64,000 nt of DNA, from NCBI RefSeq assembly GCF_009498035.1, contig NZ_CP034550.1:4092001-4156000 (forward strand), in the 5' to 3' direction. The notes beneath the pieces were generated by a model. It ran no database searches and had not been told where the DNA came from. It saw only the letters and a list, made by a program, of their open reading frames with translations. The stretch is from Saccharothrix syringae (GTDB lineage: Bacteria > Actinomycetota > Actinomycetes > Mycobacteriales > Pseudonocardiaceae). A program made the translations under genes and the position numbers. Positions 13,011 to 61,704 of this stretch are shown piece by piece (position 1 is the stretch's first letter; every line of letters begins with the position of its first letter).

Positions 13011-14129
<1,119 letters not shown>

Positions 14130-51157: not shown

Positions 51158-51577
51158 ATGGTGGTCAACGCACCCGACAAATGTGTGATCGTCGTCGACG
51201 GCGACCTGCCGGTGGGGCTGGCGCTCAACACCGCGGCGATCCTCTCGCTCACCATCGGGCGCCACGTCGACGGCGTGCTGGGGGACGACGTGAAGGACGC
51301 CGACGGGTTCGCGCACCGCGGCATCACCAGCCTGCCCGTGCCGATCCTGCGCGGGGACGCGGCGGCGCTGGCGGCGCTGGTGGTGAAGGCGGCGGCGGTG
51401 CCGGAGGTGTTCGTCGTGGACTTCACCCGCACCGCGCAGACCTCGCGCACCTACGACGAGTACATCTCGCGCATGGCCGAGATCGGCACCGGCGATCTGC
51501 CTTACGTGGGCGTGGGCATCGCCGGGCCGAAGAAGCCCGTCGACAGGCTCGTGGGCAACTTCGCCCTGTACCGCTGA
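51158..51577 (+). CDS. DUF2000 family protein
   Basis: A 139-residue protein of the DUF2000 family (peptidyl-tRNA-hydrolase-2-like fold): KCVIVVDGDLPVGLALNTAA, LSLTIGRHVDG and the C-terminal GIAGPKKPVDRLVGNF are characteristic. Function in the family is unknown. The ATG at 51158 has no strong ribosome site; an upstream TACGGT suggests a near-leaderless transcript. A perfect hairpin follows its stop. Confidence 0.85.
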   Translation: MVVNAPDKCVIVVDGDLPVGLALNTAAILSLTIGRHVDGVLGDDVKDADGFAHRGITSLPVPILRGDAAALAALVVKAAAVPEVFVVDFTRTAQTSRTYDEYISRMAEIGTGDLPYVGVGIAGPKKPVDRLVGNFALYR

Positions 51578-51617: not shown

Positions 51618-52685
51618 TCAGGCCCGCACCAGGGCGTCCTCCAGCGCGGTGACCACGCGGGCGTTGGCCTCGGGGGTGCCGACGGTGAGCCGGATGCCCT
51701 CGCCGGGGTAGAGGCGGGCCATCAGGCCGGCCGCCTCCAGGGTCGCCGCCACGTGCCCGGCCCGCTGCCCCAGCGGCAGCCACAGGAAGTTGGTCTCGCT
51801 GGGCAGCACCGCGATCCCGCGCCCGACCAGCGCCTCCCGCAGCGCGTCCCGGTCGCGGACGATGCCGTCGACGCGGGCGAACAGCTCGTCCTCCACCCGC
51901 AGCGACGCCAGCGCCGCGCGCACCGCGATCCCGTTGACCCCGCACGGCACCGCGCACTTGCGCAGCGCCGCGCTGAGCACCGGGTGCGCCACGCCGTAGC
52001 CGACGCGCAGCCCCGCCAGCCCGTACGCCTTGGAGAACGTCCGCAGCACCAGCACGTTCGGGTGGCGGCGGTACAGCTCGACGCCGTCCACCGCGCCCGG
52101 CCCGCGGGAGAACTCCCGGTAAGCCTCGTCCAGCACCACCAGCACCGACGGCGGCACGGCCGCCAGGAACGCCTCCACGTCGGCCTGCCGCACGGCCGTG
52201 CCGGTGGGGTTGTTGGGGTCGCACAGGAACACCGCGCGGGTGCGCGGCGACACCCGCGCCGCCATCGCCTCCAGGTCGTGCACGCCGTCGCGCAGCGGCA
52301 CCTCGACCGCCCGCGCCGCGGCGATCCGCGCCACGATCGGGTAAGCCTCGAACGACGGCCACGCGTACACGACCTCGTCGCCGGGGTCGAGCATCGCCTG
52401 GGCGATCTGCTGGTAGATCCCCACCGTGCCCGGCCCGGTGACCACGTCGGACTCGGGCACGCCCAGGCGCTGCGCCAGCGCGGCCACCAGGTCGCCCGGC
52501 ATGATCTCCGGGTAGTGGTGGGCCACCAGCGCCGCCCGCGACACCTCCTCCAGCACCGAGGGCAGCGGCGGGTACGGGTTCTCGTTGAGGAACAGCCGGT
52601 GCGACGTGCCGTCCGCCCGCGCCACGGGCGGTTTGGGCACGTACAGCGGCACCGTGTCCAGCACGGGGCGCGGTGCGGGGATCAT
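51618..52685 (-). CDS. HisC-like aspartate-type aminotransferase
   Basis: A 355-residue fold type I PLP aminotransferase close to histidinol-phosphate/aromatic aminotransferases. LFLNENPYPPLPSVLEE is the N-terminal clamp, DPNNPTGT the substrate loop, Asp186 (LDEAY) the pyridine partner, Lys219 (TFSKAYGLAGLRVGYG) the Schiff base and Arg in GEGIRLTVG the carboxylate site. In this operon it probably transaminates a prephenate-derived 2-keto acid, as HisC-like enzymes do in arogenate-type and bacilysin pathways. The ATG overlaps the preceding stop (ATGA). Last gene of the operon. Confidence 0.9.
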   Translation of the reverse strand: MIPAPRPVLDTVPLYVPKPPVARADGTSHRLFLNENPYPPLPSVLEEVSRAALVAHHYPEIMPGDLVAALAQRLGVPESDVVTGPGTVGIYQQIAQAMLDPGDEVVYAWPSFEAYPIVARIAAARAVEVPLRDGVHDLEAMAARVSPRTRAVFLCDPNNPTGTAVRQADVEAFLAAVPPSVLVVLDEAYREFSRGPGAVDGVELYRRHPNVLVLRTFSKAYGLAGLRVGYGVAHPVLSAALRKCAVPCGVNGIAVRAALASLRVEDELFARVDGIVRDRDALREALVGRGIAVLPSETNFLWLPLGQRAGHVAATLEAAGLMARLYPGEGIRLTVGTPEANARVVTALEDALVRA

Positions 52686-53650
52686 GCCGTCCTCTCCTCC
52701 AGTGCGGCGCGGGCCACGTAGAAGCCCGACATGGTGTCCTGCACGGCCAGGCCGAGGGACTTGTAGAGGGTGGTCTCGTCGGCCGAGCCGCGGCCGGGGT
52801 GGCGGCCCAGCAGCACCTCGCCCAGCTCCGCCCGCACGTGGTCCGGCCCGATCAGGCCCTCGGCCAGCGGCGCGCGCAGGTCGCCGGACTCCGCGGCCGC
52901 CGACTCGCGGCTGTCCACGAACACGGCCGCCTCCGCCACCACCCGCGACGCCAGCTCGCGCGCGTCGGCGAACGAACCGCCGACCACGTTGAGGTGCGCG
53001 CCCCGCGCGACCCAGCCCGGTTCGACGATCGGCTCCTTGCTCGCCGTGGTCGTGCAGACCAGGTCGGCGCCGGCCAGGGCGGAGCGCACGTCCGGCGCCA
53101 CCTCGACGTCGACGTCCAGCTCGCGCGCGGCCCACGCCCGGTAGTCGGCGGCGTGCTCGGGCGTCCGGCTCCACACCCGGACCCGTCGCAGCTTGCGCAC
53201 CACCGCCATGGCCCGCAGGTGGCTGCGCCCCTGCACGCCGGAGCCCAGCACGGCCAGGTCGCCCGCGTCCACCGGCGCGAGGGCGTCGGTGGCCACCGCG
53301 GAGACCGCGGCGGTGCGGGTGGCGGTGATCGCGCCCGCGTCCATCACGGCCAGCGGCCGCCCGGTGTCGGGGTCGAACACCATGACCACGCCGATGTGCA
53401 GGTCCAGCCCGCGCGCCGGGTTCTCCGGCTTGAGGACCATCGCCTTGAGCCCGAAACCCGCGTCGCCGCCGCCCGCGACGTGGCACGGCATGGTGCCCAG
53501 CAGCCCGGTCTCGGTGGGCGGGCGCAGGATCGTGCGCAGCGGCTGGGTGACCTGGCCCGCGCTGTAGCGGCGCATGGCCTCGGCCATGACGTCGATGGCC
53601 GCCTCCACCGGGTAGAGCCGGTGGACCTCGTGCTCGTCGAGGAAGAGCAT
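52682..53650 (-). CDS. Ornithine cyclodeaminase/mu-crystallin family enzyme
   Basis: A 322-residue NAD(P)-binding enzyme. MLFLDEHEVHRLYPVEAAID, the Lys69/Arg112 carboxylate site (FGLKAMV, TATRTAA) and the Rossmann motif VLGSGVQGRSHLRAM at 134-148 are the family signature. Members act as ornithine cyclodeaminase, ketimine reductase, alanine dehydrogenase or siderophore enzymes (SbnB). In this operon a ketimine reductase or amino acid dehydrogenase role on an alicyclic amino acid is plausible. GGAGGC precedes the ATG. It overlaps the hisC-like start by 4 bp. Confidence 0.9.
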   Translation of the reverse strand: MLFLDEHEVHRLYPVEAAIDVMAEAMRRYSAGQVTQPLRTILRPPTETGLLGTMPCHVAGGGDAGFGLKAMVLKPENPARGLDLHIGVVMVFDPDTGRPLAVMDAGAITATRTAAVSAVATDALAPVDAGDLAVLGSGVQGRSHLRAMAVVRKLRRVRVWSRTPEHAADYRAWAARELDVDVEVAPDVRSALAGADLVCTTTASKEPIVEPGWVARGAHLNVVGGSFADARELASRVVAEAAVFVDSRESAAAESGDLRAPLAEGLIGPDHVRAELGEVLLGRHPGRGSADETTLYKSLGLAVQDTMSGFYVARAALEERTA

Positions 53651-53660
53651 GTGCCTCCGA

Positions 53661-54266
53661 TCAGGCCGGCGCGGCCGTGAACACCGACCACAGCATCCGG
53701 ATGGTGCGGGTGCGGGAGATGAACTCCAGGTCGTAGGCCGCGGCCGAGGGCTGGGTGGTCAGCGCCAGGTCGACCTCGCCGTCGCGGACCGCGATCGCGG
53801 CGGCGCTGGTCGAGGTGACCTTGACGGTCTCGTGGGCGGTGAAGCGGTCCGGCAGCAGCTGCGCCACCAGCGGCAGGGGAGCCGGGTGGCTGGCGATGCG
53901 CGGCCTGGGCGGCACCGCCGCGCCGCGCCGCCGGGCGATGCCGTACATCGGCGTGTCCCGGATGAACGCGCCGGCCAGCGCCAGCCGGGTGTCCATGTAG
54001 AAGTCGCTGACGTTGGCGTACGCGCTGGCGACCACCACGTGGCTCACCGCGCCGGAGCGCAGCGCGTCGCCAGCCTCCTCGTAGGTGTCGAACAGCCGCA
54101 CGTCGGGCGCGCCGACGCCGGCGAAGGTGTGCCAGACGTGCCGCGCGGCCTGTTCGCTGCTCGTGCCCGCCGGGCCCAGGGTGCCCACCGACCGCACCGG
54201 CACGTCGCGGCCCGCCAGCACGGACAGCCGCGGTTCGGCCAGCAGCAGGGGTTCCGCCAGTGACAT
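53661..54266 (-). CDS. BacA-like prephenate decarboxylase homologue
   Basis: A 201-residue protein of the prephenate dehydratase-like fold with the marks of BacA, the bacilysin prephenate decarboxylase, about 204 residues long. Shared features: VGTLGPAGTSSEQAARH, LFDTYEE, DFYMDTRLAL, IRDTPMYGIARR, IASHPAPLP, TSTSAAAI, VDLALTTQPSAAAYDLEF and the C-terminal MLWSVF. Known relatives (BacA, AerD, SalX) decarboxylate prephenate without aromatising it, giving dihydro-hydroxyphenylpyruvate, the entry to non-aromatic amino acids. It lacks the ACT domain of PheA. GGGAGAGAG precedes the ATG. Assignment rests on remembered motifs, not on an alignment. Confidence 0.8.
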   Translation of the reverse strand: MSLAEPLLLAEPRLSVLAGRDVPVRSVGTLGPAGTSSEQAARHVWHTFAGVGAPDVRLFDTYEEAGDALRSGAVSHVVVASAYANVSDFYMDTRLALAGAFIRDTPMYGIARRRGAAVPPRPRIASHPAPLPLVAQLLPDRFTAHETVKVTSTSAAAIAVRDGEVDLALTTQPSAAAYDLEFISRTRTIRMLWSVFTAAPA

Positions 54267-54279
54267 CTCGCTCTCTCCC

Positions 54280-55263
54280 TCACGCGTTCGGGGGCACGGG
54301 CACGCGGGTGAGCCAGTGCTCGCGCCGTTCGTCGCCGCCGCGCACCAGGTCTTGGTAGCGGCGGCGCAGTTCGGTGGTGACCGGGCCGGGTTCGCCGCGG
54401 CCGATCGCGCGACCGGCCAGCTCGACCACGGGCGTGATGCCCAGGCCGGTGCCGGTCAGGAAGACCTCGTCGGCCAGCAGCAGGTCGGCCGGCTGGAGGT
54501 CGCGCTCGACGGGGGCCAGGCCCAGGTCCACGGCCAGCTCCCGCGCGGTGTCGCGGGTGATGCCCTCCAGGATGTCGGCGCCCGGCGGCGGGGTCAGCAC
54601 CTCGTCGCCGCGCACCGCGAACACGTTGGCCGTGCTCGCCTCGGCGACCGAACCCCGCTCGTTGAGCAGGATCGCGTCGTCGTAGCCGGCCGCGCGGGCC
54701 TCGTCCACGGCCAGCGCGTTGTTCAGGTAGGCGCCGGTCGCCTTGGCCCGCACCGGGACCGACCGGGCGGGCGGGCGCGTCCACGAGCTGAACGCGCACC
54801 GCACCCCGCCCGCGGGCGAGTAGTCGCCCAGGGCGAACGCGATGACCGACAGCCCGTCGGAGTTGCCGCGCAGCGACACCCCCGGCGGGGTGCCGGGCAG
54901 CAGCCGGTACTTGTAGGCCAGCGGCCGGATGTAGGTGTCCTGCGCCGAACCGTTGCGGGACAACAGCTCCACCACGATCGAGGCCAGCTCGTCCACGCCG
55001 TGCGGCAGGTCGATGCGCAGCAGCCGGCACGACCGCTCGAACCGCGCGAGGTGGTCGTGCAGCCGGAACACCGCCAGCTCGGCGCGGCCGGGCACGACGT
55101 GCGCCCGGATGCCCTCGAACACGCCCGTGCCGTAGTGCAGGCCCTGCGTGGTGACCGGCAGGGTGGCCTCGGCCACCGGCACGAACCCGTCCAGGTGGTA
55201 GGCCCACGCCGCGGTGGCCGGTCGCCCGGTGGCGCGCCGGGGGCTGGAGACGCCGGCGGTCAC
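54280..55263 (-). CDS. Class IV (branched-chain-type) aminotransferase
   Basis: A 327-residue fold type IV PLP enzyme close to IlvE. LPVTTQGLHYGTGVFEGIRA is the N-terminal pattern, Lys174 (VRAKATGAYLNNALA) the Schiff-base lysine, and SVAEASTANVFAV, PPPGADILEGITRD and LLADEVFLTGTGLGITPVV the cofactor phosphate site. Together with the HisC-like enzyme it gives the operon two different transaminases. It may make an amino acid from a keto acid, or be the aminodeoxychorismate-lyase-type of the same fold. Start GTG is one base after the preceding stop. Confidence 0.9.
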   Translation of the reverse strand: MTAGVSSPRRATGRPATAAWAYHLDGFVPVAEATLPVTTQGLHYGTGVFEGIRAHVVPGRAELAVFRLHDHLARFERSCRLLRIDLPHGVDELASIVVELLSRNGSAQDTYIRPLAYKYRLLPGTPPGVSLRGNSDGLSVIAFALGDYSPAGGVRCAFSSWTRPPARSVPVRAKATGAYLNNALAVDEARAAGYDDAILLNERGSVAEASTANVFAVRGDEVLTPPPGADILEGITRDTARELAVDLGLAPVERDLQPADLLLADEVFLTGTGLGITPVVELAGRAIGRGEPGPVTTELRRRYQDLVRGGDERREHWLTRVPVPPNA

Positions 55264-55264
55264 G

Positions 55265-56677
55265 TCACGACCTCGCCGAGGCCAGGGCGCGGGCCGCCGC
55301 GGTCTCGGCGTCCACCTCCGACCGGTTGTCCACCACGCGCGCGGCCTTCCAGCTGACCATGGCGCCGGTGGAGGTGATGCTGCCGAACCGGTCGTGGTCG
55401 ACGCCGACCTCCACGCCGAGCACGTCCCGGCAGTGGTCCCGGATCGCCGGGTCCACCCGCGGCGGCTCGTCGTCCGCGGCCTCCAGCTTGAGCACCAGCC
55501 GGTCGGCGCCGTCGGCGCCGGTGTCGATGACCACCTGGTAGTCCAGGTAGCCGCGGACGTGGCCGAGCAGCAGGTTCTCCAGGTCGTAGCCGCTGATCCG
55601 GCGGCCGCCCACGACCAGCTCGTCGCGGGTGCGGCCCAGCACCTCCAGCCGGTCGGCGGGCAGCGAGGCCGCCGCGTCGCCGGGCGTCAGCCGCACCAGG
55701 TCGCCGGTGCGGTAGCGCACCAGCGGCTTCGCGCCCCGGTAGAGCGCGGTGACGACCAGCTCGCCGGTCCGCACCCCGCCGGCCGGCGCCACCGGGTCGC
55801 CGGTGGTGGGGTCGACGACCTCGTAGAAGTTGATCAGCGGCGCGGTGTAGAGGCCGCCGTCCTCGCCCGCCGCGCCCAGCACGGACGCCTCCTGCGAGGC
55901 GTACAGGGCGTTGTAGGCGCGGGCGCCCCACAGCTCGCCGATGTTGGCCAGCAGCTCCGGCGAGGCCAGTTCGCCGGTCAGCATCAGCACCCGCACCCGC
56001 AGGTCGCGCCGCGGGTCCAGGCCCGCCGCGCGCACCCGCTTGGCCAGCGTCAACGCCATGCCCGGGGTGCAGAACAGGCCGGTGACGCCCAGTTCGCGCA
56101 GCACCGCGACGGCCCGGTCGAAGCCGACCATGGGCGAGTGCGGCCACATCTTGGCCACCGCCAGGCCGAGGTTGCGGCACACGTCGCCGAACGTGTCGCC
56201 GAACGCGTGCAGCTCCGTGGGGCCGGACACGCCGATGACCTGGTCGTCGCCGTGGTGCCGGAAGATCGTGTCGTAGTGCACGGTGAGCACGGTGTTGTTG
56301 GCCAGCGAGTCCACGTTGTCGCGCGGGCACGGCGTGGAGGCGCCCGTGGTGCCCGTGGTCTCGTAGAAGATCCACGCCTTGGACAGCGGGCGCGACAGGA
56401 TGTCGTACCGCGCGGACCGCAGGTCGTCCTTGGTGGTGAACGGCACCGAGGTCCACGCCGCGCCGGTCGACGACGTGATCGCCGCCGGGTCCACGTGCGC
56501 CAGGTGCCGCCGGTAGAAGGGCGAGTTCGCCCGCGTGTACTCCACCGCGGACCGCAGGTTGGCGACCCGGTGGGCCTCCAGGCGGTCCGCGCCCCACCCG
56601 CCGGCGGCGAACTCCCGGTGGTCGTCGCGGAAGCGCCGGGCGACCTCGGCCAGTTCCTCGTTGAAGATGGTGAACAT
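55265..56677 (-). CDS. PaaK-like adenylate-forming enzyme
   Basis: A 470-residue member of the phenylacetate-CoA ligase branch of adenylating enzymes. FYRRHLAHVD, WTSVPFTTKDDLR, the P-loop FYETTGTTGASTP, the A5 segment NALYASQEAS, the hinge RYRTGDLVRL, and VVGGRRISGYDLENLLL are visible. These enzymes activate aromatic acids or amino acids to acyl-adenylates and pass them to CoA, an amine or a carrier. No carrier protein or condensation domain is in the window, so CoA or amide formation is more likely than NRPS loading (inference). GGGAG precedes the ATG. Confidence 0.88.
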   Translation of the reverse strand: MFTIFNEELAEVARRFRDDHREFAAGGWGADRLEAHRVANLRSAVEYTRANSPFYRRHLAHVDPAAITSSTGAAWTSVPFTTKDDLRSARYDILSRPLSKAWIFYETTGTTGASTPCPRDNVDSLANNTVLTVHYDTIFRHHGDDQVIGVSGPTELHAFGDTFGDVCRNLGLAVAKMWPHSPMVGFDRAVAVLRELGVTGLFCTPGMALTLAKRVRAAGLDPRRDLRVRVLMLTGELASPELLANIGELWGARAYNALYASQEASVLGAAGEDGGLYTAPLINFYEVVDPTTGDPVAPAGGVRTGELVVTALYRGAKPLVRYRTGDLVRLTPGDAAASLPADRLEVLGRTRDELVVGGRRISGYDLENLLLGHVRGYLDYQVVIDTGADGADRLVLKLEAADDEPPRVDPAIRDHCRDVLGVEVGVDHDRFGSITSTGAMVSWKAARVVDNRSEVDAETAAARALASARS

Positions 56678-56696
56678 CGGAATGCGGCTCCCGGGG

Positions 56697-57038
56697 TCAG
56701 CTCGCTGCGGGTACGGGCACGTCGTTGGTCACCACGGTCGCGTCCTGCTCGACGACGTCCGCGACGACCCAGTCGCTGATCTCCCGCCACCGGGCGATGG
56801 CGTCCTGGTGGAACGGGTGCGTCATGTAGCGCCCCAGCGCGTCCTCGTCGGCCAGCAGGCCGATGACGACGAAGTCGTAGGCCACGGGCCGGTCGGAGAC
56901 GTTGCGCCCCGCGTACCAGTGGGCCAGGTCCGGCACCTCGTCACCGACCCGGCGCGCCACCGCCTCCGCGGCCAGCACGGCGTCGTCGTCCCACGACACC
57001 CCGGGCTTGAACTTGAACAGCACGATGTGCCGGATCAT
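56697..57038 (-). CDS. Dabb (stress-responsive A/B barrel) domain protein
   Basis: A 113-residue dimeric alpha/beta-barrel protein: MIRHIVLFKFKPGVSWDDDA, YDFVVIGLLADEDALGRYMT, HPFHQDAI. Relatives include small cyclases and isomerases in polyketide and cannabinoid pathways as well as proteins of unknown role. Within this operon it may guide a cyclisation, isomerisation or decarboxylation step. The ATG overlaps the TGA of the chorismate mutase-MqnA gene (ATGA), indicating coupled expression. Confidence 0.88.
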   Translation of the reverse strand: MIRHIVLFKFKPGVSWDDDAVLAAEAVARRVGDEVPDLAHWYAGRNVSDRPVAYDFVVIGLLADEDALGRYMTHPFHQDAIARWREISDWVVADVVEQDATVVTNDVPVPAAS

Positions 57039-58156
57039 GCGTCTCCTCCGAAGAAGGTGATGTCGGCGTCCTCGGCCACGTCGCCGTGCCGCGCGGCGAG
57101 CTTGGCGAAGTGCCGGATGCCCGCGACCTGCCGCTCGCCCAGCGAGTGGTCGAGCACGCCCAGGTAGCGGGCCAGCTCGTCGCGGTCGAACAGGCCGTCG
57201 CCCGCGGGCGACCCGGCGACCTCGGCGAGGTGCCGGCCACCGCGACCGGCGGCGTCGAGCAGGGTGGCGTGCGCGGCCCGCACGTCGTCGGGGCGCCGCG
57301 CCGCCGTGGTCCGGCGCACCGCCCACACCGCGAACACCATGGGCAGCCCCGTCCACTCCCGCCACAGCGCGCCCAGGTCGTGCACGCGCAGGCCCGGTCG
57401 CGGGTGCAGGGTCTCGGCCAGCGCCGCGTCGCCGATCAGCACCGCGCCGCCCGCCTGCCGCAGCATGTCGGCCAGCACCGGCGGCTCCACCCGGTACTCG
57501 GCCTCGACCCCGACCCACTCGGTCAGCAGCACCTTGGCCAGCAGGGCCGCGGTGCGGCTGCTGGAGCCCAGCGCGACCCGGCCGCCCGCCAACCCGGCCA
57601 GCGGGCCGCGGGTGAACAGCTGGCACGACATGACCGGCCCGTCGCTGCCGATCGCCAGGCCGGGCAGGGCCAGCAGCTCCCGGTGGTGCCGCAGGTACTC
57701 GACGAGGCTGATCGGCGCCACGTCGACCTCACCGGCCAGCAGCGCGGCGGCCACCGCCTCGGGCGTGCCGGTCACGGGCTCGGGCGAGCCGGTGGCCGCC
57801 AGGCCCCAGCGCACCGCGGCGCAGTTGGCGAAGGAGAACACGCCCAGCCGCAGCGGCCTGGTCGCGGACTCGGCCTCCACCTCGGGCCGCTCGCGCTCGG
57901 CGCCCAGCCTGCCCCGGCAGATCTCCAGCACCGTCGAGCTGAGCACCGCGCCCGCGCTGCCGAACGCGCTGCGGTAGCGGCGGAAGATCTCCCGCTCCCG
58001 CGCCATGTCCGTGCGCACCCCGCCGTTGGCCAGCCGGTCGCGCTGGATGCCCGCGGAGATGCGCCGCCGCTCGTGCAGCAGCGCGATCAGCTGCGTGTCG
58101 AGGTCGTCGATCCGGCTCCGCGCTGGTGTGGTGCCCGGTTCCGTCCCTACGGACAC
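57035..58156 (-). CDS. Chorismate mutase-MqnA-type chorismate dehydratase fusion
   Basis: A 373-residue two-domain protein. Residues 13-85 are an AroQ-class chorismate mutase: SRIDDLDTQLIALLHERRRI, Asp50, Arg53 and Glu54 in TDMAREREIF; the usual last Gln is not evident. Residues about 100-345 match MqnA, which dehydrates chorismate to 3-enolpyruvylbenzoate in the futalosine route: RLGVFSFANCAAVRW, DVAPISLVEYLRH, IGSDGPVMSCQLFTR, SSSRTAALLAKVLL, IGDAALAE and DLGALWREWTGLPMVFAVWAVRR. The fusion is unusual because both domains would use chorismate. The dehydratase-like domain could instead act on prephenate. GGGGG precedes the GTG. Confidence 0.88.
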   Translation of the reverse strand: MSVGTEPGTTPARSRIDDLDTQLIALLHERRRISAGIQRDRLANGGVRTDMAREREIFRRYRSAFGSAGAVLSSTVLEICRGRLGAERERPEVEAESATRPLRLGVFSFANCAAVRWGLAATGSPEPVTGTPEAVAAALLAGEVDVAPISLVEYLRHHRELLALPGLAIGSDGPVMSCQLFTRGPLAGLAGGRVALGSSSRTAALLAKVLLTEWVGVEAEYRVEPPVLADMLRQAGGAVLIGDAALAETLHPRPGLRVHDLGALWREWTGLPMVFAVWAVRRTTAARRPDDVRAAHATLLDAAGRGGRHLAEVAGSPAGDGLFDRDELARYLGVLDHSLGERQVAGIRHFAKLAARHGDVAEDADITFFGGDA

Positions 58157-58190
58157 TGAAAACCCCCAGTAAAGTCGGTGCGGTCTTTTT

Positions 58191-59081
58191 TCAGAACGAG
58201 ACGCCGATGCGGTCGGGGTCCTCGTCGTCCACGGTCCGCAGGAATTCCGAGAAGAACTCGTGGACGTGGTCGATGGACCGCCCCGCGAACAACACGTGCT
58301 GGTAGTCCGTGATGTCGTACTCGGTGGTCGCCATGCCTTTCAGGTCCAGCGGCCGGATGTCCGCCTCGCGGAAGCGCTCCAGTTCGCCGAACGAGGACAG
58401 CAGGCCCGCGCCGTACGCGCGGAACTGGCCGCCCTCCTCGATGACGCCGTACTCCAGGGTGAACCAGAAGATGCGCGAGATCAGCTCGATCGTGCGCGGT
58501 TCGGCGACCCGCCGCACGGCCTCGCCGGTCAGCCGGTACAGCTCGGCGACCTTGGGGTTGCCCAGCGCGGGCGCGTGCCCGACCAGCTCGTGCACCACGT
58601 CCGCCTCGGGCGAGAACAGCGGCTGCGAGTGGTGCCGGATGAACTGCGCGGCGTAGAACCTCCGATCGGCCTGGACGCCGTAGAACTCCTCGATCGGCAC
58701 GAAGCCGACCGCGGGCTGGAGGCCGAACCCGGTCATCGCGGTCAGGCGCTCGGTGACCTCGTTGAGCTGCGGCACCCGGTCCGCGGGCAGGGCCAGCTCG
58801 GCGGCCCACTTCACCACGTCGGTGGCCGCGTACTCGTCGTGCCGCTCGGCCAGCGACCGCTGGATCACCCGCCAGGTCTCGTGGTCCCGCTCGTGGTAGT
58901 CGATCTCGGGCGCGGGCGTGCCGTACACGTGCTGCGCGCCCAGGTGGGCGATGCGGTTGCGGCGCTCCGTGTAGTCCTCGTCGCCGTGCGCCGGGTGGTT
59001 CGCCGGGAACGCGTAGCGCGGATAACCCGATTCGTCGTAGGTCATCGGCGCGTACAGGGCGACGTCGTCCATGTGCTCCAC
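58191..59081 (-). CDS. Phenylalanine/aromatic amino acid hydroxylase
   Basis: A 296-residue pterin-dependent aromatic amino acid hydroxylase. The non-heme iron ligands are His164 and His169 (DVVHELVGHAP) and Glu210 (FWFTLEYG), with the 5- and 41-residue spacing of bacterial phenylalanine hydroxylase. It lacks an ACT regulatory domain. It is the first gene of the eight-gene operon. Tyrosine, meta-tyrosine or another hydroxylated amino acid could be the product, since specialised relatives differ in regiochemistry. GTG 59081 or ATG 59072 (MDDVALY) may be the start; GGTGGAG lies between them. Confidence 0.92.
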   Translation of the reverse strand: MEHMDDVALYAPMTYDESGYPRYAFPANHPAHGDEDYTERRNRIAHLGAQHVYGTPAPEIDYHERDHETWRVIQRSLAERHDEYAATDVVKWAAELALPADRVPQLNEVTERLTAMTGFGLQPAVGFVPIEEFYGVQADRRFYAAQFIRHHSQPLFSPEADVVHELVGHAPALGNPKVAELYRLTGEAVRRVAEPRTIELISRIFWFTLEYGVIEEGGQFRAYGAGLLSSFGELERFREADIRPLDLKGMATTEYDITDYQHVLFAGRSIDHVHEFFSEFLRTVDDEDPDRIGVSF

Positions 59082-59244
59082 CGGTTTTCCGCTAGGGGGC
59101 GCCCGGGTGCGTGTAAATCATTTGAACCGGGTACCCGGAATTCAACGACCAGGTCAACGTATGACCGGCCCAATTAGCCGTCAACGTCACCCGGCGGTCG
59201 TCACCGGGGTGGACCACCGGGGCCACCGGGGTGGCCCACTTGGT

Positions 59245-59269
59245 AAAGTTTCCAAAGTTTGGAAACTTT
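59245..59269. promoter_or_regulatory. Perfect 12-bp-arm inverted repeat in the operon/lysE divergent promoter
   Basis: Arms AAAGTTTCCAAA and TTTGGAAACTTT flank a single central G. The element lies between the hydroxylase start (59081) and the lysE start (59341), 164 and 72 bp away. It is one of the most AT-rich stretches in the region. It shares half-sites with the palindrome at 20991-21008, so the same LacI-like protein family could bind both (inference). Confidence 0.75.
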
Positions 59270-59340
59270 CCGATGTGCCCCGCTCGGGCACCGGTGCGCA
59301 CTTCGCCGCGCGGCTATCGCCCTGCTGCTATCGTCGGGGC

Positions 59341-59970
59341 ATGTTCGCGACGCTGATCGCATTCGCCGGCGTGTCGTTGCTGGCCACGCTGATCCCGGGA
59401 CCGGACACGGCGGTGGTGATCAAGAACTCGCTGGGCCGCGGTCGCCGGTCGGCCATCGCCACCGCGGGCGGGTGCAGCACCGGCCAGGTCGGGTGGGGGC
59501 TCGCGTCGATCGCGGGCATCGCGGCGCTGCTGGCCACGTCCGTGGTCGCGTTCAGCATCATGAAGTGGGTCGGCGCGCTGTACCTGTGCTACATCGGCAT
59601 CCGGTCGCTGATCAGCGCGGTCCGCTCGGGCGGCGCGGCGGAGGCGGCCGGGCCGCGGGCGGCCGCACCGGGCGGCGCGGCCGCGTCCTATCGCGACGGT
59701 CTGCTCACCAACGCGCTGAACCCCAAGACGGCGTTGTTCATGTCCGCGCTGCTGCCGCAGTTCACCGGACCCGGCGACCCGGCGTGGCTGCCGTTCGCGC
59801 TCGTGGCCGTGACCGCGGTGGTCAGCTTCGCCTGCATGGCCGCCTACGCGCTGGTGTTCGCCAAGATCGGGGACGTGCTGCGGCGCCCGGTCGTGCGGCG
59901 GACGGTCGACGGCGCCATGGGCGGCGTGCTGGTGAGCTTCGGCGTGGGGCTGGCGTTCAGCCAGGCATGA
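59341..59970 (+). CDS. LysE/RhtB family amino acid exporter
   Basis: A 209-residue membrane protein with six helices. The family signature is FAGVSLLATLIPGPDTAVVI near the start and GLLTNALNPKTALFMSALLPQF in the middle. Such proteins export amino acids and derivatives. Its position, divergent from the biosynthetic operon across a shared inverted repeat, suggests that it exports the product of that operon. Its stop overlaps the end of the convergent regulator gene by 14 bp. Confidence 0.92.
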   Translation: MFATLIAFAGVSLLATLIPGPDTAVVIKNSLGRGRRSAIATAGGCSTGQVGWGLASIAGIAALLATSVVAFSIMKWVGALYLCYIGIRSLISAVRSGGAAEAAGPRAAAPGGAAASYRDGLLTNALNPKTALFMSALLPQFTGPGDPAWLPFALVAVTAVVSFACMAAYALVFAKIGDVLRRPVVRRTVDGAMGGVLVSFGVGLAFSQA

Positions 59971-61066
59971 GCCGGGACGCCCAGCCGTAGAGGTGGCGCG
60001 GGCGGCCGGTCTTGCCGTACTGCACGGTCATCACGGCCGAGCCCCGGTCCACCAGCTGCTTGAGGTAGCGGCGACTGGCCACCGAGGACAGGTTGCACCG
60101 GCGGCCGACCTCGGTGGCCGACAGCGGGGCGGTGCTGTCGTGCAGCACCATCGCGACCAGGCCGAGCGTGGACGTGGCGGGCGGTCGGCGGTCGCCGGTC
60201 GGACCGGGGCCGTGCACCAGGAGGTTGACCTCCTCCTGGTCCAGCGGCGCGTCGGGTTCCTTGCGCCCGGCCAGGCGCCACCGGCCCAGCCACACGCCCA
60301 GCAGCTCGCGCAGCGTCCCCGGGTCGACCGGGGCGACCAGGCAGGAGAACACGCCCAGCCTGGCGATGGTCAGCACCACGTCCGGGCGCGGGCGCGTGAC
60401 GACCAGGAGCGCGTCGCACTGGTGGCGGCCGTGCTCGCGCATCCGCCTCAGCGCGCCCAGCACCTGCTCCTCGTTGCCGGGGTCGCAGCACACCAGGGCG
60501 ATGTCGGGGCGCAGCGCCTGCACCACGTCCGGCACGCCGGCGTCCGCCCGCACCACGCCGGCGATCTCCAGCTCGCCGAGGGACTGGACGGTCCACAGGA
60601 CCGGCACGAGGTCGTCGGTATCGCCGACGGCCAGCACGCGGGCGCGGTTCCGCGTGGTGTTCGGGTGCGGGCCGGCGGGGGCCGCGGTGCCGGTCGCCGG
60701 GGTGCTGTTCGCCGGGTGATCGGAGCCGACGCGACGGGGGGCGGGGTGGACGGGGCCTGGGTGGACGGGGCCGGGGCGGACGGGGCCGGGGTGGACGGGA
60801 TAACCGGTCACCGGTGTGCCGGGTCTGAGGTCGACCGCCACGGCGTGATCGGGTCCGGGGCTGCCGGACCTGGGGCCGCCCGATCTGGGGCCGCCGGGTC
60901 CGGGGCGGTCGGGTCCGGGGCGGTCGGGTCCGGGGCGGTCGGGTCCGGGGCGGTCGGTCACCGGGGTTGTGGAGCCGGGGTTGCCGGTCGCCGGGCCGGC
61001 GGCTATCGCGGTGCCGACCCCCAGGTCGGCGATCTTGCGGTTGGTCACTCCCAAGCTTTCGGCCAC
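59957..61066 (-). CDS. DcuR/CitT-like regulator with degenerate receiver
   Basis: A 369-residue DNA-binding protein. Residues about 20-150 are low complexity, with 15-bp-encoded PGPDR and PGPVH repeats. Residues about 150-270 are a receiver-like domain whose phospho-acceptor is replaced (PDIALVC where PDLVLLD is expected) and whose conserved Lys is Ala (LVAPVDP). The C-terminus is the helix-turn-helix of the CitT/DcuR group (LSATEVGRRCNLSSVASRRY, LKQLVDRG). It probably regulates without phosphorylation. It adjoins the lysE/operon region and may control it. I chose the GTG at 61066 because GGGGGAC lies upstream; a TTG at 61081 is possible. Confidence 0.78.
   Translation of the reverse strand: MAESLGVTNRKIADLGVGTAIAAGPATGNPGSTTPVTDRPGPDRPGPDRPGPDRPGPGGPRSGGPRSGSPGPDHAVAVDLRPGTPVTGYPVHPGPVRPGPVHPGPVHPAPRRVGSDHPANSTPATGTAAPAGPHPNTTRNRARVLAVGDTDDLVPVLWTVQSLGELEIAGVVRADAGVPDVVQALRPDIALVCCDPGNEEQVLGALRRMREHGRHQCDALLVVTRPRPDVVLTIARLGVFSCLVAPVDPGTLRELLGVWLGRWRLAGRKEPDAPLDQEEVNLLVHGPGPTGDRRPPATSTLGLVAMVLHDSTAPLSATEVGRRCNLSSVASRRYLKQLVDRGSAVMTVQYGKTGRPRHLYGWASRLMPG
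60745..60957 (-). repeat. Two 15-bp tandem repeat blocks in the regulator gene
   Basis: Block one (60745-60798) has about four units encoding PGPVH or PGPVR; block two (60894-60957) has four units encoding GPDRP. Both are in frame and separated by about 95 bp. They form a Pro-rich spacer before the receiver-like domain. Confidence 0.85.
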
Positions 61067-61704
61067 TGTCGTGTCCCCCAAGGACGACGGGTCGACTTGC
61101 GCGTGCCGGCCGTGCCGGCGTGCTCCGACACCGAGTGGCCGGCGGTTGCGCGGTCACCGTTTCATGGCCCCCCAGTTTCGAGCACTTTCACATTACTGCG
61201 GCTTCGCTGCCGTCTCCAGCGGCCGCCGCGCTGCGAGCATCCGAAGGAGGTGTCGGGAAAAACGCTCAAATGGCGTCATCCGGACCGGTTCACCGCTCCC
61301 GGGCCGGCCGCGGTCGTGGTAGGCGACGCCCCATCCGGCGTACGCACTGGTAGTCCGACTGACGTGGGGTGCGCGGACTGGCGCGCGACCTGGAGGGGCG
61401 GGCGCGGGATGGGCACGGTGTCCCGGATGGTGGGAACGGATCTCACGGTCGGTTGCCATTGCAGCCGCAAATAACGTCGATCGACCCCCCGAACGGCCGA
61501 ATTATGACTTCGCACTGCTAAGGGCCGCCAGGTGGAATGGAATACTGTGAGATGAGTCACATTAGGGTGTGGACGCGGGTTCGAGCCATACCGAAATCCG
61601 GTGCGGTTAATAAGAAAAACCGAAGTCCGCACAAAACATCGCGGTGCGCCCATTAGAACTGCACCGGTTCAGGGCCGGTCGGTCGTGGTGTTCGGCTATC
61701 GGGA
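61067..61704. other. Intergenic 638 bp
   Basis: Lies between the regulator start and the phosphoribosyltransferase stop, both on the minus strand. The stretch 61470-61670 is notably AT-richer than its surroundings and has stops in all frames. It probably holds the regulator promoter. I see no gene, RNA or clear operator. Confidence 0.6.

Follow-up and report, generated by a model that had tools for sequence, protein, structure and literature searches.

An operon of Saccharothrix syringae that probably encodes a variant of the non-aromatising prephenate pathway

The operon and its neighbours

The window analysed here is a stretch of 64,000 nucleotides from Saccharothrix syringae (contig NZ_CP034550.1, positions 4,092,001 to 4,156,000), and the subject of this study is an operon within it that joins a chorismate mutase fused to an MqnA-like domain with a decarboxylase-family protein of the SalX/BacA type, two aminotransferases, and a divergent exporter gene. 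Eight co-directional, tightly spaced genes occupy positions 59081 to 51618 of the minus strand; their spacings are, 5' to 3', 34 bp, a 4-bp overlap, 19, 1, 13, and 10 bp, and a further 4-bp overlap. The HisC-like gene starts at 52685, within the ATGA overlap. A preliminary description of this DNA had reported eight genes in one direction, overlapping by 4 bp or lying 1–34 bp apart, and a divergent LysE gene, which is confirmed, and Pfam finds every gene family that it named (Biopterin_H, CM_2 and VitK2_biosynth, Dabb, AMP-binding, Aminotran_4, PDT, OCD_Mu_crystall, Aminotran_1_2, and LysE). The features are as follows; L096 and L097 are two Amycolatopsis loci.

58191..59081, minus strand: pterin-dependent aromatic amino acid hydroxylase (AAAH), 296 aa; Pfam PF00351, E 2.7e-60; NCBIfam NF008877, 255 bits against a cut-off of 247
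57035..58156, minus strand: fusion of an AroQ-delta-type chorismate mutase (CM; about residues 10–85) and an MqnA-like domain (about residues 97–360)
56697..57038, minus strand: Dabb (alpha/beta barrel) small protein, possible isomerase; PF07876, E 4.3e-18
55265..56677, minus strand: PaaK-like adenylate-forming enzyme; resembles NCBIfam CoA-ligase models and solved phenylacetate-CoA ligases
54280..55263, minus strand: class IV (IlvE-like) aminotransferase (AT4); PF01063 (Aminotran_4), E 2.2e-51; NF005146, 289.7 bits against 279
53661..54266, minus strand: protein of the PDT-fold non-aromatising prephenate decarboxylase family (SalX/BacA type); Pfam PDT
52682..53650, minus strand: ornithine cyclodeaminase/mu-crystallin family protein (OCD); PF02423 (OCD_Mu_crystall), E 3.6e-74
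51618..52685, minus strand: HisC/Pat-like (PRK03321) aminotransferase; NF002878, 420.1 bits against 374; Aminotran_1_2
51158..51577, plus strand: DUF2000 protein, convergent, downstream of the operon; PF09391, E 1.4e-41
59341..59970, plus strand: LysE-family exporter, divergent; PF01810, E 2.8e-32; conserved in L096 and L097
59245..59269, no strand: 25-bp perfect palindrome, candidate operator, between the operon and the LysE gene; AAAGTTTCCAAAGTTTGGAAACTTT
59957..61081, minus strand: neighbour of no assigned type; no Pfam match at E 0.01; 52–53% identical in L096 and L097

The two parts of the fusion protein match PF01817 (CM_2, E 2.6e-7) and PF02621 (VitK2_biosynth, E 1.9e-57), and NF005894 (chorismate mutase) is reached with 73.8 against 73 bits. 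The PaaK-like protein scores under the AMP-binding cut-off (25.3 against 29.9 bits) and under those of all NCBIfam CoA-ligase models that it resembles (DVU1553 family, E 1e-32; haloarchaeal PaaK, E 5.5e-28), and its similarity to the solved phenylacetate-CoA ligases has an E value of 1.3e-23. The OCD-type protein is a probable NAD(P)-dependent reductase. At other places the same genome has an ordinary prephenate dehydratase (PDT) and two further CM_2 matches; therefore, the CM and PDT-like copies of the operon look dedicated to it. The reported lack of non-ribosomal peptide synthetase (NRPS), polyketide synthase (PKS), and carrier proteins agrees with the present searches, in which Pfam found no carrier-protein domain among the eight operon proteins and the 64-kb window gave no match to two NRPS proteins or one ketosynthase used as probes.

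The gene set as first delimited, eight genes with LysE, is sound as far as it goes, but the DUF2000 gene just beyond it also belongs, because its counterpart lies inside the operon, between the Dabb and PaaK genes, in Streptomyces. A regulatory role for the palindrome was set aside, since its sequence is not conserved across the three loci: L097 has a palindrome of 21 bp and other sequence in a like place, and L096 has none with arms of at least 7 bp.

Recurrence of the gene set

Searches with the PDT-like protein gave matches in 11 of 390 genomes of the same family (E 1e-8), in 19 of 392 Streptomyces genomes (E 1e-15), and in 23 of 354 genomes of the family to which a Micromonospora belongs (E 1e-8). 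Neighbourhoods were examined for the window's genome and five of the ten others in the same-family set, the five weakest (31–37% identity) being left out, for all 19 Streptomyces, and for the best 2 of the 23 in the Micromonospora-family set, which gave a table of 27 loci. A PDT-like gene of at least 49% identity is present in 23 of these, accompanied by PaaK in 22, AT4 in 22, Dabb in 21, and OCD in 19.

These 23 loci can be sorted by what adjoins the core. Subtype A has DUF1330 and PhzF genes (8/23; weak in L127, at 47 and 33%), and subtype B, to which the window belongs, has an MqnA-like gene together with a HisC/Pat-like gene of at least 60% identity, a pair that occurs in the same seven loci. 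Neither pair is found in the remaining eight, of which L094, L133, L134, and L136 carry DUF2000 and EamA genes. Among the neighbourhoods examined, subtype B occurs in 3 of the 390 same-family genomes and 4 of the 392 Streptomyces genomes. The gene order from AAAH to HisC recurs in L096 and L097 at 76–90% identity and, without AAAH, in four Streptomyces loci (L063, L123, L124, and L125) at 41–72%. Therefore, the operon is not a chance grouping; conservation in other genomes, which had been proposed beforehand as a test, was indeed found. All seven subtype-B loci have a LysE or EamA exporter; DUF2000 was not found in the L096 stretch. In trees from quick searches, subtype B forms one clade for PaaK, OCD, Dabb, and DUF2000 (SH-aLRT support of 88, 94, 80, and 99, respectively).

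The PDT-like protein has the prephenate dehydratase fold in a fold search. Its TRF motif is missing, and I-x-M-x-W-S-x-F stands at that place in all 28 aligned members; the genome's own ordinary PDT keeps TRF.

Several loci have further neighbours. Subtype-B operons of two of the four Streptomyces (L063, 1–6174, and L123, 1–5338) adjoin genes for a protein like an adenylation–peptidyl carrier protein (A-PCP), a P450, a thioesterase, and a radical-SAM protein (families assigned by eye); B12-binding and radical-SAM domains are present in the L129 homologue of the radical-SAM protein. These neighbours suggest that, in the two loci, the amino acid is also used by a small NRPS. In L093, a TauD-family dioxygenase gene (13053–14096) precedes the five-gene Dabb-PaaK-AT4-PDT-OCD module, and an NRPS-like gene is nearby. 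Class II DAHP (3-deoxy-D-arabino-heptulosonate 7-phosphate) synthase genes lie near the module in 5 of the 27 loci (L094, L095, L132, L171, and L172), an indication that additional flux through the shikimate pathway is needed. L137–L140 have weaker PDT-like genes (31–35%) and a partial set only. In three of these, all Streptomyces (L138, L139, and L140), the distant PDT-like gene is paired with a PaaK-like gene (44–46%) beside TrpE-like and B3/B4-like genes (by eye), and the pair perhaps represents a separate pathway.

The CM-MqnA-like protein and the pterin hydroxylase

The MqnA family is known from menaquinone biosynthesis. The fusion of CM to a member of this family, to which the preliminary description had drawn attention, is real in the three Pseudonocardiaceae loci (the window, L096, and L097), but the two parts are separate adjoining genes, in different frames, in all four Streptomyces loci of subtype B; the fusion is therefore local. 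Both domains also occur together in seven 90%-identity clusters (P0122–P0128) among the 120 of 2354 relatives listed, and their named members are Saccharothrix lopnurensis and A. tolypomycina.

The MqnA-like domain, hereafter MqnA', is about 50% identical to actinobacterial MqnAs and was compared with a canonical set of 79 rows (78 loci and S. coelicolor MqnA). Position 23 in S. coelicolor numbering, residue 116 of the fusion protein, is Arg in all seven subtype-B rows and Tyr in 79/79 canonical rows; position 132 is Arg in the same seven and Phe or Tyr in 76 of the 79. The clusters P0122–P0128, two of which are nearly the same as L096 and L097, have Arg23 in 7/7 and, at position 132, Arg in six and His in one. 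P0129, P0130, P0132, and P0171, which were placed in type B by their Arg23 before tree building, have His, Thr, His, and Arg at position 132. A tree of 45 rows over all columns separates type B from canonical MqnA with an SH-aLRT support of 100 (unrooted, from a quick search). MqnA' keeps all the residues that differ in three deposited MqnA variants, Asn (7ywc), Ser (7an8), and Tyr (7an9), the variants 7an6 and 7an7 being outside this comparison. Therefore, the MqnA-like kind of catalysis is probably kept, while the substrate contacts may have changed.

Unlike the MqnA of the futalosine pathway, with which it shares its family and the three variant residues, MqnA' is fused to or stands beside CM in a secondary-metabolite operon and has Tyr23 replaced by Arg in every locus. 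The operon's own PF02621 gene is also the sole match in the window's genome, and the partner MqnD, which belongs to the same Pfam family, was thus not found. G096 and G159 have one PF02621 gene each, G243, G136, and G090 have none, and the Streptomyces genome G390 has four; from these counts, the fusion in those Pseudonocardiaceae does not belong to a futalosine pathway. Menaquinone supply was set aside as a function, as no second PF02621 gene was found in the genome. Elsewhere, the MqnA family is also present in the cluster of a naphthoquinone-bearing macrolide (PMC4763440).

One could suppose that two building blocks are made, the MqnA domain converting chorismate to 3-enolpyruvylbenzoate (towards 3-hydroxybenzoate) and PaaK joining it to a prephenate-derived amino acid supplied by the remaining enzymes. 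The overall identity to true MqnAs and the three kept residues are in keeping with this, as is a match of PaaK to the model of an ester-forming synthetase (BagE/FevW), under its cut-off. However, the canonical Tyr has given way to Arg throughout type B, no enolpyruvyl-group lyase was recognised by Pfam among the operon genes, and PaaK occurs in loci where no MqnA-like gene was found, so that it need not use an MqnA product. We regard this reading as unlikely.

The fusion may also be likened to the P-protein (CM-PDT), since in both CM is joined to a dehydratase domain of the periplasmic binding protein (PBP) fold, that of the window being of MqnA type rather than PDT. It might then be an unorthodox counterpart which yields phenylpyruvate, with Pat producing phenylalanine and AAAH producing tyrosine, so that the producer is shielded against the Phe/Tyr mimic that it makes, or the product is supplied with precursor. 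The Pat-like aminotransferase does occur in the same seven loci as MqnA', and the AAAH is an intact protein of the phenylalanine hydroxylase (PAH) family. On the other hand, an ordinary PDT and other CM matches are already present in the genome, no AAAH was found beside the Streptomyces members, and the AAAH pocket is unlike that of an ordinary PAH, which makes this supposition quite improbable.

Among the 27 loci, AAAH genes are confined to the window, L096, and L097. Few genomes of the family carry such a gene (12 of 150, counting that of the window), and that of the operon is the only PF00351 match in its genome. It keeps His285, His290, and Glu330, the PAH iron ligands. Phenylalanine 4-monooxygenase thus shares its family and iron ligands, but the YTPEP motif of the substrate pocket (Tyr277, Thr278, and Pro281) is replaced by FSPEA. 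In a comparison of 29 chosen positions, those corresponding to rat PAH 277, 278, and 281 are Phe, Ser, and Ala in all three operon AAAHs and Tyr, Thr, and Pro in the 11 other family members and rat PAH. Mammalian PAH converts 2,5-dihydrophenylalanine to an epoxide, from which the idea of an epoxidase arises for this AAAH.

The CM-MqnA' protein could be a two-step enzyme of a new kind. CM would form prephenate, and the second domain, a chorismate dehydratase put to another use, would remove water from an alpha-keto acid derived from prephenate, of 4-hydroxycyclohexenyl (or cyclohexadienyl) type, without a futalosine pathway. The pterin hydroxylase would then epoxidise or hydroxylate the resulting non-aromatic amino acid to give an exported epoxy-amino-acid antimetabolite, no carrier proteins being involved. 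This scheme is put forward tentatively, as one possibility.

Proposed pathway and described relatives

The five genes Dabb-PaaK-AT4-PDT-OCD are collinear with those of locus L171 in genome G1074, with identities of 55, 57, 53, 58, and 57%, respectively, and the two PDT-like proteins share their invariants. In L171 the order continues with DUF1330 and PhzF, and the set lies behind an opposite-strand class II DAHP synthase gene. The surrounding region of G1074 (about 1.14–1.19 Mb) encodes a proteasome beta subunit, a crotonyl-CoA carboxylase/reductase, a ketosynthase, an A-PCP protein, and a member of the SAM hydroxide adenosyltransferase/halogenase family, a content that fits a salinosporamide cluster. 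Disruption of salX is reported to inactivate the pathway to L-3-cyclohex-2'-enylalanine (PMC2866466). Since the core is collinear with this salinosporamide-type sub-operon, it is homologous to a described precursor pathway.

The operon is therefore best read as probably a variant of the non-aromatising prephenate pathway that leads to a free, exported amino acid mimicking Phe or Tyr, of the dihydrophenylalanine, dihydrotyrosine, or cyclohexenylalanine type. The CM domain would convert chorismate to prephenate, as its sequence supports, and the SalX/BacA-type enzyme would, judging by its family, decarboxylate prephenate without aromatisation. Ring oxidation and double bonds may be adjusted by the Dabb, PaaK, and OCD-type proteins, as their near-constant company with the SalX-type gene suggests, and transamination would fall to the IlvE-like enzyme, the Pat-like enzyme, or both, in line with their families. 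In subtype B the MqnA-derived dehydratase may work on a pathway intermediate; in Pseudonocardiaceae the pterin hydroxylase may oxidise the amino acid. LysE, by its family, would export the product, whose likeliest use would be that of an antimetabolite. The initial view of a dedicated chorismate/prephenate operon with a non-aromatising decarboxylase of the BacA/SalX family, transaminases, and an exporter is thus supported. The case for its suggestion of a final amide or CoA ester formed by PaaK is weakened, and an aromatic amide or CoA-ester end product was set aside, since PaaK is also found in clusters in which an amino-acid precursor is what the module provides.

Several observations weigh against the proposed pathway. 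DUF1330 and PhzF were not found in the 19-kb stretch of the window, and the end product may therefore differ from cyclohexenylalanine. A search of PDB sequences with the PDT-like profile gave no match at E 0.01, and the fold also resembles other PBP-fold proteins, acylase 7am0 among them. The AT4 and PDT trees (quick searches) do not unite subtype B in a single clade, and this split, together with the modest support for PaaK and Dabb, makes simple common descent of the entire block less likely. Finally, the MqnA-like domain may still form 3-enolpyruvylbenzoate, given its identity to true MqnA and the three kept residues.

An epoxyketone amino acid of the bacilysin/anticapsin type would also draw on a BacA-type decarboxylase, a homologue being annotated as bacilysin biosynthesis protein BacA, and AAAH could serve as the oxygenating step. 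In bacilysin biosynthesis BacB is a cupin isomerase, BacG and BacC are short-chain dehydrogenases/reductases, and BacD is an ATP-grasp ligase; none of these families is represented among the eight operon proteins. Bacilysin proper was set aside on the lack of BacB/C/D/G-like genes in the operon, and a related epoxyketone product is highly improbable.

The statement that no described pathway has this gene set must be revised, since five of its genes form the cyclohexenylalanine sub-operon of a salinosporamide-type locus and a similar set is carried by plasmids of Pantoea and Pseudomonas aeruginosa. The salinosporamide-type locus has the same core in the same order, but with DUF1330 and PhzF downstream, an adjoining class II DAHP synthase gene, and NRPS/PKS genes nearby; the window instead has CM-MqnA, HisC, DUF2000, AAAH, and LysE. 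An orphan operon without NRPS genes is thereby linked to the cyclohexenylalanine genes of a proteasome-inhibitor cluster. The subtype-A loci L126, L130, and L131 adjoin a proteasome beta gene (checked by Pfam for L126) and are candidate salinosporamide/cinnabaramide-like clusters.

Pantoea vagans pPant1 (L190) and P. aeruginosa pNY8709-IMP (L193) carry AsnC, Dabb, DUF2000, PaaK, AT4, PDT/BacA-like, carboxymuconolactone-decarboxylase-annotated, OCD, and LysE genes; the pPant1 AT4 gene is not in the PLSDB table and was seen as tblastn pieces in two frames. Seven of these are shared with the window (Dabb, DUF2000, PaaK, AT4, BacA/PDT-like, OCD, and LysE), at 34–49% identity for Dabb, DUF2000, and the enzymes and 25–30% for LysE. 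In contrast to the window, the plasmid modules have AsnC and the carboxymuconolactone-decarboxylase-annotated gene, and no CM, MqnA, HisC, or AAAH match. No NRPS is annotated in the 13-kb stretches of the two plasmids examined, and on a Streptomyces plasmid subtype A lies beside NRPS and PKS genes. From these contexts, the exported free amino acid and the NRPS precursor look like two uses of one module, which suggests that it is widespread also as a stand-alone amino-acid maker and exporter, from Streptomyces to Pantoea plasmids. The Pantoea antibiotic clusters PNP-2 and PNP-3 are named in PMC7744662, and its main text contains none of five gene terms looked for. On a Pseudomonas amygdali plasmid (L191), a PaaK relative (40%) lies beside anthranilate synthase I and II genes, with no PDT-like match in the stretch.

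Judging by collinearity, the five-gene core is already known from the salinosporamide-type precursor pathway. What is new is the CM-MqnA' pair with the Pat-like aminotransferase, to which the Pseudonocardiaceae loci add a pterin hydroxylase whose pocket is altered; no description of the pair, of the HisC and AAAH additions, or of this gene set was recognised among the results of full-text searches of open-access papers. Overall, it appears that the MqnA family has been recruited to a prephenate pathway, with the change of Tyr23 to Arg as a testable position, and the compact gene sets are offered for reconstituting the unassigned steps that lead from prephenate to cyclohexenylalanine. Among described free products, the nearest is the Photorhabdus antibiotic dihydrophenylalanine, whose formation requires a non-aromatising prephenate decarboxylase and a transaminase (PMC5897657); as described there, the 2,5-dihydrophenylalanine pathway resembles that proposed here in combining such a decarboxylase with a transaminase to yield a free antibiotic amino acid.

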